A stretch of 44,444 bases of DNA from a virus. The notes under the pieces are model-generated. The model saw only the letters and a program-made list of their open reading frames with translations, was not told the DNA's origin and searched no databases. Every line of letters begins with the position of its first letter. The first letter of the stretch is position 1. This document shows positions 6,346 through 29,606 of this stretch, piece after piece. Where the stretch lies: IMG/VR virus record IMGVR_UViG_3300045996_000519, positions 1 through 44,444 of that record; one strand, given 5' to 3'. A program made the translations under genes and the position numbers.

Positions 6346-6948
6346 TTACGCGGCTTCTGGCGCAACTGTCGGACCGTAGAATTCACGCCTTTGATGCACT
6401 GATTTGCGTCCACCCGTCAAGTGGTGCGCAACAGCATTCAGTGCAATTCGCACATCGCCCACCATATGGGGCCATTCCTCGTTGCGGAACACGATGTAGT
6501 CGATTGCAGCGTGCAGGTTGGCGCCCCGGTTGGCGTGCAGCGCGTTCTCCGCTGTGATGGCGTTCATGGCGTCTACGTAGCGGTTGATCGCGCCGTGGCA
6601 CCACGTGGCGTAGGTTTCAGTCTCCTCCATATCGCCGCCCGAGCCGGTGCTGTTCTTGAGGGCGTCTGGCGCCTTCATGGCTCGCTTGTAGGCATCGCGG
6701 AAGCGCAGCAGCTCTTGCGCGGCCTCCCACATGGCGTTCTTTGCAGCTGGGTCCTTGCCGAGCGCGCCGGTCAGGTAGAGGCGCCCGAGATAGGTTGCCG
6801 CCTTCTGGTCCCGCGCGTCCTGCTCAGTGAGGCCAAAGAGGCGGATGCGGGTCTGTATCGCCTCGATGTGCTCCTGGTATGCGTCGGATGCGCGAGACTT
6901 TCGCCCACTTGCCGTTCGCTTCACTCCAGCTTGCTTTTTCCTGCTCAT
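6346..6948 (-). CDS. Helical protein near terminase; possible DNA-recognition or packaging factor
   Basis: 200 residues with a strongly basic N-terminus (first 20 residues rich in Lys/Arg) followed by mostly helical sequence. There is a Trp-Cys-His-Gly stretch near 115 and a His/Arg-rich tail. No known catalytic motif is visible. The position just upstream of the small terminase candidate, and the basic N-terminus, fit a packaging-site or regulatory DNA-binding role, but this is inference. Upstream, at 6970-7006, an 8-base inverted repeat AAAACTAT/ATAGTTTT lies in the gap before the start. Confidence 0.65.
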   Translation of the reverse strand: MSRKKQAGVKRTASGRKSRASDAYQEHIEAIQTRIRLFGLTEQDARDQKAATYLGRLYLTGALGKDPAAKNAMWEAAQELLRFRDAYKRAMKAPDALKNSTGSGGDMEETETYATWCHGAINRYVDAMNAITAENALHANRGANLHAAIDYIVFRNEEWPHMVGDVRIALNAVAHHLTGGRKSVHQRREFYGPTVAPEAA

Positions 6949-25849: not shown

Positions 25850-26293
25850 ATGCGCGTCGGATTTACGGGAACTCAGAACGGCATGACCGACATGCAGTCG
25901 CAGTTCGTATTCAACACGATGATGGATTTGGAGCCGACCGAGGCGCACCACGGCTGCTGCATCGGGGCCGACGCACAGTTCCATGACATGCTCGGCTACA
26001 GTCAGGCGCAGGTCTATGGGCACCCGCCCATCAACACCAGCAAGATGGCCGATTGCCAGTGTGACGCCCGCGCCGTTCCCAAGGACTACCTAGAGCGGAA
26101 CCGCGCCATCGTGGACACTACGGACGTTCTCATAGCGGCCCCGAAAGGTCCTGAGGAACTCCGCAGCGGCACGTGGTCAACGGTTCGCTACGCCCGCAAG
26201 CTACGCCGCCCCATCTATATCGTGTGGCCCAGCGGGAGCATGACGGTCGAAAACGCCCCTCCCCACCATCCCAGCAGTAGCGAGGAAGCATGA
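25850..26293 (+). CDS. SLOG-fold (DprA/YspA-like) nucleotide-binding protein
   Basis: 147 residues from ATG 25850 after CTGGAGCAAG. The opening R-V-G-F-T-G-T-Q-N-G-M-T (2-13), H-G-C-C-I-G-A-D-A (34-42), the H-P-P loop, R-N-R-A-I-V-D-T-T-D-V-L-I-A-A-P (83-98) and a Gly-Thr-Trp-Ser-Thr segment (about 106-110) are the marks of the SLOG/Rossmann superfamily, which binds nucleotides or nucleotide-derived signals. It directly precedes the GGQ protein and overlaps it. SLOG proteins are frequent in phage defence and counter-defence; a sensing role is inference. Confidence 0.8.
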   Translation: MRVGFTGTQNGMTDMQSQFVFNTMMDLEPTEAHHGCCIGADAQFHDMLGYSQAQVYGHPPINTSKMADCQCDARAVPKDYLERNRAIVDTTDVLIAAPKGPEELRSGTWSTVRYARKLRRPIYIVWPSGSMTVENAPPHHPSSSEEA

Positions 26294-26508
26294 GCGACAT
26301 ACTACCCGCCGAGGACATGAGCATCGAATTGCTCCGCAAGCACCCCGAGGGCGGACAGCACGCCGGTTCGCCGCCAATGCTAATGAAGGTGACGCACAAG
26401 CCATCCGGCATCACGGTCATTCTGGAGCAGCGGTCGCAGCATCGCGCTCGGTCTCTGGCCTACGAGATGATCGAATGCGCGCTCACCAGCCCGACTTACC
26501 AGCCATGA
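26290..26508 (+). CDS. Mini class-I release-factor-like protein (GGQ domain)
   Basis: 72 residues. It has the peptidyl-tRNA hydrolysis signature: G-G-Q-H at 21-24, then a spacer, V-T-H-K-P-S-G-I-T-V (34-43) and R-S-Q-H (48-51) followed by a helix, in the order and spacing of domain 3 of bacterial release factors (RF-1 family). There is no stop-codon recognition domain and no long basic C-terminal tail as in ArfB. It could act on stalled ribosomes or on free peptidyl-tRNA, or interfere with host translation; none of this is shown. Overlaps the SLOG gene by ATGA and the next gene by ATGA. Confidence 0.7.
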   Translation: MSDILPAEDMSIELLRKHPEGGQHAGSPPMLMKVTHKPSGITVILEQRSQHRARSLAYEMIECALTSPTYQP

Positions 26509-26855
26509 CCATGACACGCTTTCCTCCCGACATCATAGACGCCGTAGATACTGCCCTATCCAGGTTCTACGGTAAGGACAGGATTGTAGACCCTGCATTA
26601 GCAGAGGCTGTAGCGGAGCTGGTGCAGGGGGAGAGGGAGCGCGCGAATGGCTTTCTGCGTCGCTCGCATATTGCCCAAGGAGGTCTCGACGCAGCGAAGG
26701 CGACTCTTGGCTACGCAGAGCAATTCATGGGTCGCAACAAGAGCCTCAGCGACAACACAAAACTGATGATGCTCTGGGACTACATCAAAAAGGCCAAGGG
26801 CCAGATTGAGCGTCGAAACGAAGCCATCGCCAAGGCGATCAGAGGTAAACCATGA
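26505..26855 (+). CDS. Helical hypothetical protein
   Basis: 116 residues from ATG 26505, coupled to the GGQ gene. All-helical, with mixed charge and a basic C-terminal helix (Lys-Lys-Ala-Lys-Gly-Gln-Ile-Glu-Arg-Arg-Asn). Coupled to the following DUF551 gene. No family recognised; the coupling suggests it acts with its neighbours. Confidence 0.55.
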   Translation: MTMTRFPPDIIDAVDTALSRFYGKDRIVDPALAEAVAELVQGERERANGFLRRSHIAQGGLDAAKATLGYAEQFMGRNKSLSDNTKLMMLWDYIKKAKGQIERRNEAIAKAIRGKP

Positions 26856-27094
26856 GCGACTGGCAGGATATTTCAACGGCACCGAAGGACGTAAACATCA
26901 TTGCTGCCGATGCTAGTGACGGGTGGGTTGGTGAGGTCTACTGGTACAATCGCCACTCGGAGTACCTAGGAGGCGGGCCGGGATGGATGATCGCGAACTG
27001 CGATTCCGAGTACGGAAGCTTGGTCGAAGCTACTCACTGGCAACCCCTGCCCTCTCCTCCCAAGCCTTCGCCTTCTCCATCACCCGACGAATAA
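26852..27094 (+). CDS. DUF551-type protein, copy 3 (diverged)
   Basis: 80 residues. The N-terminus W-Q-D-I-S-T-A-P-K-D and the end A-T-H-W-Q-P-L-P-S-P-P fit the DUF551 pattern, with a longer aromatic middle and a Pro/Ser tail. It is the last plus-strand gene before the convergence point, and its final 65 bases are antisense to the minus-strand gene 27030-27206. Confidence 0.75.
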   Translation: MSDWQDISTAPKDVNIIAADASDGWVGEVYWYNRHSEYLGGGPGWMIANCDSEYGSLVEATHWQPLPSPPKPSPSPSPDE

Positions 27095-29548: not shown

Positions 29549-29606
29549 GTGCCCGTAGCTCAGTTGGTAGAGCCTTGGGTCGGTGGTTCAAGTCCATCCG
29601 GGGACA
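29549..29606 (+). ncRNA. tRNA-like element lacking the anticodon arm
   Basis: 58 bases. The acceptor 5' strand GTGCCCG pairs with CGGGGAC at the 3' end (six of seven), followed by discriminator A and CGA. The D-arm GCTC...GAGC is perfect with the usual AGTTGGTA loop. The T-arm GGTGG/CCATC with loop TTCAAGT has five pairs including one wobble. Between D-arm and T-arm there are only 8 bases instead of about 23, so the whole anticodon arm is missing. It is directly behind a strong promoter, and flanking GCTGGCG (29543-29549) and CGCCAGC (29624-29630) could form an outer stem. Either a decayed tRNA or a tRNA mimic. Confidence 0.7.

Follow-up and report, generated by a model that had tools for sequence, protein, structure and literature searches.

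A phage gene predicted to encode a stand-alone release-factor domain 3, and its GGQxxG relatives

Results

Genes at the locus

The stretch of DNA analysed here (the window) is a 44,444-base IMG/VR virus record. Its portal protein is 40% identical to the portal of Rhizobium phage RHph_N3_2, and an integrase gene is also present. An open reading frame encoding 72 amino acids was confirmed at positions 26290-26508 on the forward strand; its ATG start is preceded by GAGGAAGC and its translation is MSDILPAEDMSIELLRKHPEGGQHAGSPPMLMKVTHKPSGITVILEQRSQHRARSLAYEMIECALTSPTYQP. Three short motifs follow one another on this strand: GGQ (codons GGC GGA CAG, 26350-26358), which lies in an unstructured loop of the structural model, VTHKPSG (26389-26409), which spans the second strand and turn of the domain, and RSQH (26431-26442), which forms a strand-to-helix loop. 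In ArfB and the release factors, catalytic-site residues sit on an RSQH-type strand-to-helix loop and on the GGQ loop (PMC3950681).

The neighbouring genes on the same strand encode a SLOG/DprA-like protein of 147 residues (25850-26293), a protein of 116 residues that looks helical by eye (26505-26855), and a DUF551 protein of 80 residues (26852-27094), the product of a common phage accessory gene. The translational coupling proposed in the initial annotation was upheld by ATGA overlaps at 26290, 26505, and 26852, which therefore join four genes (SLOG, release factor, helical, and DUF551) rather than the three first proposed. The SLOG fold ascribed to the upstream protein was confirmed by profiles and by structure (model pLDDT 73; best PDB match ShosA at E = 4.8e-5, with DprA at 2.8e-4), and PADLOC assigned this protein to ShosA (4e-5). 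PADLOC yielded no match for the release-factor protein. Scans of viral and genome contigs confirmed no relatives of the 116-residue protein.

Further downstream (29549-29606, forward strand) the window contains a 58-base tRNA-like sequence with an acceptor stem, a D arm, and a T arm, and without an anticodon arm. It scored 39.9 bits against the Rfam tRNA model and was not called by ARAGORN. The same shape was found in Polaribacter phage Danklef_1 (L086, 145-202), in Lactococcus phage 63301 (L087, 143-203), and near position 6458 on the reverse strand of L088. In these phages of unrelated hosts the acceptor stems differ yet stay complementary, and the element is possibly an anticodon-less tRNA mimic.

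Homology and predicted fold

Profile searches and modelling both indicate that the 26290-26508 product is a phage accessory protein made up of domain 3, the peptidyl-tRNA-hydrolase domain, of a class-I release factor and nothing else. Among NCBIfam models the best score was for PrfH (E = 9.2e-9), followed by prfB (4.4e-7) and prfA (9.5e-7). RF1 in the PDB was matched at 3.3e-6, with the GGQ, THKPSG, and RSQH motifs co-linear in one aligned stretch, and PHROG 20323 ("RF-1 domain peptide chain release factor") at 1.6e-6. The domain-3 homology first read from these motifs was thus corroborated. The Pfam RF-1 model (PF00472), suggested at the outset as a check, also matched significantly (E = 2.8e-6), although the score of 27.7 bits falls below the gathering score of 35 bits. 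The same model matched 21/21 members of the GGQxxG family described below (best 1.9e-15). PHROG 20323 matched 20 of these 21 and PHROG 35727 matched 16, the window protein being unmatched by the latter at 1e-3. A profile built from the family hit RF2 at 5e-20.

The protein is not a class-I RF1 or RF2, as the codon-recognition domains 2 and 4 are absent and the 72 residues comprise domain 3 only. Nor does it belong to ArfB/YaeJ: six residues follow the last helix, none of them basic, and there is no insert between strands 2 and 3. The lack of stop-codon reading domains and of an ArfB-type tail, noted initially, therefore stands. The features found are those of a phage mini release factor (stand-alone, approximately 60-80 residues, phage-encoded, and matched by the profiles).

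An AlphaFold2 model from 12 sequences predicted a beta-beta-beta-alpha domain (mean pLDDT 80) with strands at residues 10-16, 30-36, and 42-47 and a helix at 50-66. Residues 17-29, which include GGQ, form an exposed, irregular loop of lower confidence. In Foldseek searches of the PDB the best 45 matches were all release factors (RF1, RF2, PrfH, mitochondrial release factors, and C12orf65), with TM scores of 0.46-0.67 over the query and a best E-value of 1.6e-3. The initial annotation was to be abandoned if RF-1 gave no significant match and the predicted fold did not place GGQ on an exposed loop; the profile matches and the modelled loop support it instead. The E-values and the fold together rule out a chance resemblance to domain 3.

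A phage GGQxxG family

Single-protein scans of viral and genome contigs gave no confirmed relatives of the window protein. A DNA pattern for G-G-Q-[HQ]-[AV]-G-x9-H-x-P-[ST]-G was run on IMG/VR and on 84,980 bacterial and archaeal species genomes. It returned 29 IMG/VR loci, 27 of which are stand-alone mini release factors of approximately 68-79 residues, a few of them near-copies of one another, in which the pattern is followed by an RSQ-type loop and a helix. The species genomes gave 11 loci. Ten were chance frames that do not continue as a release-factor domain, and the eleventh (L078), flanked by tail and baseplate genes, sits on a contig of phage origin within a metagenome-assembled genome; the family is therefore phage-only at this search sensitivity. 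A contaminating host release-factor gene was ruled out for the window, where a stand-alone 72-residue frame of this phage-only family sits inside a phage operon.

The window protein shows the whole arrangement, that is, G-G-Q-[HQ]-[AV]-G, nine residues, H-x-P-[ST]-G, an RSQ-type loop, and a single final helix. In the signature GGQxxG, glycine replaces the asparagine of the release-factor motif GGQHxN. H-x-P-[ST]-G is invariant among members, which is partly imposed by the scan pattern. The window protein lacks this asparagine and also the usual N-K after RSQH. Its nearest relative, the L060 protein, is 50% identical, and several members end in A-L-T-H-P-R-Y/F-R, resembling the A-L-T-S-P-T-Y of the window. 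The mini proteins are neutral to acidic, with a mean net charge of -0.5. The family is under purifying selection: estimates of omega (dN/dS) were obtained for five close pairs and lay at 0.12-0.18, distant pairs being saturated or at 0.3-0.5. In a tree resting on 72 columns only, with long-branch joins flagged, a branch supported at 97/87 has release factors, along with the degenerate proteins of Acinetobacter and Vibrio phages, on one side and the GGQxxG proteins and Otagovirus on the other.

Retention of GGQ

The main pattern demanded GGQ, and conservation of the motif was therefore judged from scans that did not require it (two driven by alignments and one using a pattern without GGQ, supplemented by tblastn for Boevelstad and Otagovirus). 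These recovered GGQ members in the lineages of L018, L043, L057, L042, L037, and L025, and GGM in that of L022; the tblastn finds were GGQ in Boevelstad and GGM in Otagovirus. On the GGQxxG side of the tree GGQ is thus present in 7/9 lineages and Gly-Gly in 9/9. The catalytic elements are Gly-Gly and the backbone amide of the glutamine (PMC6742477), and because catalysis rests on that amide the GGM variants may remain active. In one further record (L034, near 3048) the first glycine codon of GGQ is TGA, against GGT or GGA in relatives, with the rest of the frame intact; a nonsense mutation, a sequencing error, and recoding are possible readings.

Outside the GGQxxG side the motif has decayed to SQGH and ARRW in T4-like Acinetobacter phages and to LGGW and LGQW in Vibrio phages, and these proteins are probably inactive. 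They invite the reading that the window protein is a non-catalytic RNA- or ribosome-binding regulator that merely inherited the GGQ fold. Precedents exist in MRPS35, a release-factor-domain protein that is inactive, and in baeRF-1 families without activity (PMC6514570). However, the degenerate members fall on the release-factor side of the 97/87 branch (on long branches), outside the GGQxxG family, and GGQ is retained in the window protein and its nearest relatives. We consider a non-catalytic role improbable here.

Genomic context

The idea of a conserved three-gene unit was examined by blastp of the ORFs within 5 kb of the RF-1 gene in 26 other RF-1-bearing records and the window. A unit conserved family-wide was ruled out: no neighbour is common to these records beyond related phages, except a DUF551 gene shared with L022. 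What survives of the proposed unit is the SLOG gene, and that in a minority of genomes. It lies within 2 kb of RF-1 on the same strand in 5/27 records, which are all the records with a detected SLOG. The distance between centres is 1.4 kb in G003 (L042), where a DUF551-like gene lies between the two, and the distance is 1.4 kb in the L017 record, 0.5 kb in WXIN, and 1.9 kb in prophi86-1; in WXIN and the window the SLOG and RF genes overlap at ATGA. Taken singly, each distance has a chance of 0.01-0.07, although the window and L017 were not blindly picked and accessory genes cluster.

This linkage would fit a module for nucleotide signalling or RNA repair, with the SLOG protein as sensor or producer of a nucleotide signal and the RF domain working on the ribosome. 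The same-strand neighbours in the window, G003, L017, WXIN, and prophi86-1, two of them with overlapping genes, speak for such a module. Yet 22/27 RF-1 records had no SLOG by the searches used, mycobacteriophage SLOG genes occur with no annotated RF nearby, accessory genes cluster anyway, and the L017 record was located through its SLOG gene. Of all the readings weighed here we hold this module to be the least probable.

Other phage RF-1 genes sit in tRNA arrays, in one case next to RtcB and Pth. Such surroundings are usual for the mycobacteriophage type and for some Acinetobacter phages, and not for GGQxxG loci. The L017 phage contig has 17 tRNA genes in 5.6 kb together with a mycobacteriophage-type RF-1 protein, and its SLOG protein is 45% identical to that of the window. 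In Mycobacterium prophage prophi86-1 (L026, 3795-6713) RF-1, an RtcB ligase, a YspA-type SLOG protein, and a peptidyl-tRNA hydrolase are packed into 3 kb where a tRNA array ends, and may form a translation-repair cassette. RtcB was found in this one of 32 RF-1-bearing records and was absent from the window and from every GGQxxG record searched. A PrfH-RtcB repair unit was ruled out, neither RtcB in the window nor a codon-recognition domain in the protein being present.

An L7/L12 domain in Otagovirus relatives

In the GGM-bearing RF-1 proteins of Otagovirus (L006, L007, and L013) the C-terminal part matched the C-terminal domain of ribosomal protein L7/L12. The matches exceeded the gathering score in VCM (9.4e-7) and UNO-G1W1 (1.2e-8) and fell just below it in phiPsa374. 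These proteins are annotated merely as peptide chain release factor 1 or as hypothetical. No L7/L12 domain was found elsewhere in the window. Phage bL12 domains are known as insertions in other phage proteins, one of which was recovered in ribosomal fractions (PMC6375957). Among independent indications that the family works at the ribosome, the Otagovirus fusion is the best.

Discussion

Mode of action

Our preferred, still tentative, reading is that the window protein supplies the catalytic half of a ribosome-release factor of the phage and is recruited in trans. During infection, where the A site of a ribosome or 50S subunit is empty, the domain would enter the peptidyl-transferase centre and cause the stalled peptidyl-tRNA to be hydrolysed. 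Recruitment would depend on a partner or on another substrate state, such as 50S-peptidyl-tRNA left after the subunits have split, and not on recognition of a stop codon or of an empty mRNA channel. This would free ribosomes that host defence, or mRNA decay induced by the phage, has stalled. The homology, the domain-3 fold, the retention of GGQ, the low omega, the Otagovirus L7/L12 domain, and the RF-1 genes in tRNA arrays all support this reading.

What weighs most against a self-sufficient rescue factor is a published result on ArfB. ArfB truncated of residues 101-140, which leaves the GGQ domain alone, showed no detectable peptidyl-tRNA hydrolysis and no ribosome binding (PMC3950681). A partner or a special substrate is likely needed, because tailless ArfB is inactive, the phage proteins end after the helix, and their mean charge is -0.5. 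A near-neutral to acidic charge is unlike that expected of a free rRNA binder. Also weighing against the preferred reading are the family-wide replacement of the GGQHxN asparagine by glycine, the additional loss of N-K after RSQH in the window protein, the absence of a family-wide partner gene, and the absence of RtcB from the window and from the GGQxxG records searched.

The same observations could be explained by a competitor or decoy, in which free domain 3 occupies a site that ordinarily deals with the domain 3 of release factors, be it the methylase PrmC or the side of the peptidyl-transferase centre that faces the A site, and lowers host termination or rescue without releasing peptides. 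Judging from ArfB, the isolated domain should fail to bind ribosomes, and the family is near-neutral to acidic. PrmC methylates the glutamine of GGQ and thereby boosts release about 5- to 20-fold (PMC8904536). In several phage lineages the motif drifts to GGM or GGW or vanishes. On the other hand, GGM proteins could not serve as PrmC substrates, and Gly-Gly in all nine lineages goes beyond what a decoy would obviously need. We regard a decoy as unlikely, if the foremost of the rival readings.

Small accessory genes often serve phage host takeover. The window gene is of this kind and its GGQ is intact, and the protein might therefore be a translation poison that releases peptides on active ribosomes and shuts off host synthesis late in infection. 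We judge this no likelier than the non-catalytic role, as the protein has no targeting element, the phage carries an integrase, the adjoining genes include no recognisable antitoxin, and PADLOC did not match the RF protein.

Returning to the catalytic half recruited in trans, a more general version would be that phage-only bare GGQ domains hydrolyse peptidyl-tRNA when delivered to the 50S subunit in trans, by a partner or, in Otagovirus, by the fused L7/L12 domain, making them a minimal enzyme unlike ArfB, PrfH, or RF1/2. We rate this wider claim as doubtful. If active, the window protein would rank with the smallest release-factor machinery known, and would show phages to possess a ribosome-release enzyme of their own. 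From the published truncation of ArfB the window protein is predicted to be inactive alone, and the L7/L12 fusion of a relative provides a concrete recruitment hypothesis.

Comparison with known systems

The window protein belongs to a publicly annotated kind of phage protein and is not unprecedented. Phage proteins of 64-82 residues are already annotated as "RF-1 domain peptide chain release factor" (PHROG 20323), and the claim that it is smaller than known rescue factors does not hold as a new size or a one-off, since Ac42p144 has 64 residues. Acinetobacter phage DP45 encodes an RF-1 protein of 78 residues (DP45_138), and the RF-1 proteins of Vibrio phages (82-118), Mycobacterium phages (112-120), and Pseudomonas Otagovirus (130-160) are longer. 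A viral structure library contains an uncultured-phage "Peptide chain release factor class I/class II" of 72 residues (UniProt A0A6J5NIJ4), 40% identical over the structural match. RF-1 genes within mycobacterial tRNA arrays (PMC5966550) and an RF-like protein of PA73 (PMC3483164) have been noted previously; the literature searched contained no functional study of small phage RF-1 proteins. Our analysis adds the GGQxxG subfamily and its restriction to phages, the selection signature of this subfamily, the fusion of relatives to L7/L12, and the recurrent SLOG linkage.

Proteins of PHROG 20323, PHROG 3122, and the unnamed PHROG 35727 are, like the window protein, stand-alone phage domains 3 of similar length. 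The window protein has kept the GGQ that the Acinetobacter and Vibrio phage members have lost and that is GGM, with an added L7/L12 domain, in the PrfA-like members of Otagovirus. Its stretch from THKPSG to RSQ is one residue shorter than in the known phage RF-1 proteins.

Among cellular proteins, RF1 and RF2 share the domain-3 fold and the order of motifs, but they have domains 1, 2, and 4, GGQHxN, and SGxG before GGQ, whereas the window family has domain 3 only, GGQxxG, and no SGxG. PrfH, the best NCBIfam match, has RtcB as its partner and retains a domain for codon recognition (PMC6514570); both are lacking here. ArfB/YaeJ and ICT1 are, as in the window, stand-alone GGQ domains; they differ in having an alpha-i insert and a linker with a basic C-terminal tail, which ArfB requires to bind and to act (PMC3950681). 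C12orf65/mtRF-R, although it carries a C-terminal extension absent from the window protein, is likewise a small GGQ protein, and PDB 7a5h shows it on the split large subunit.
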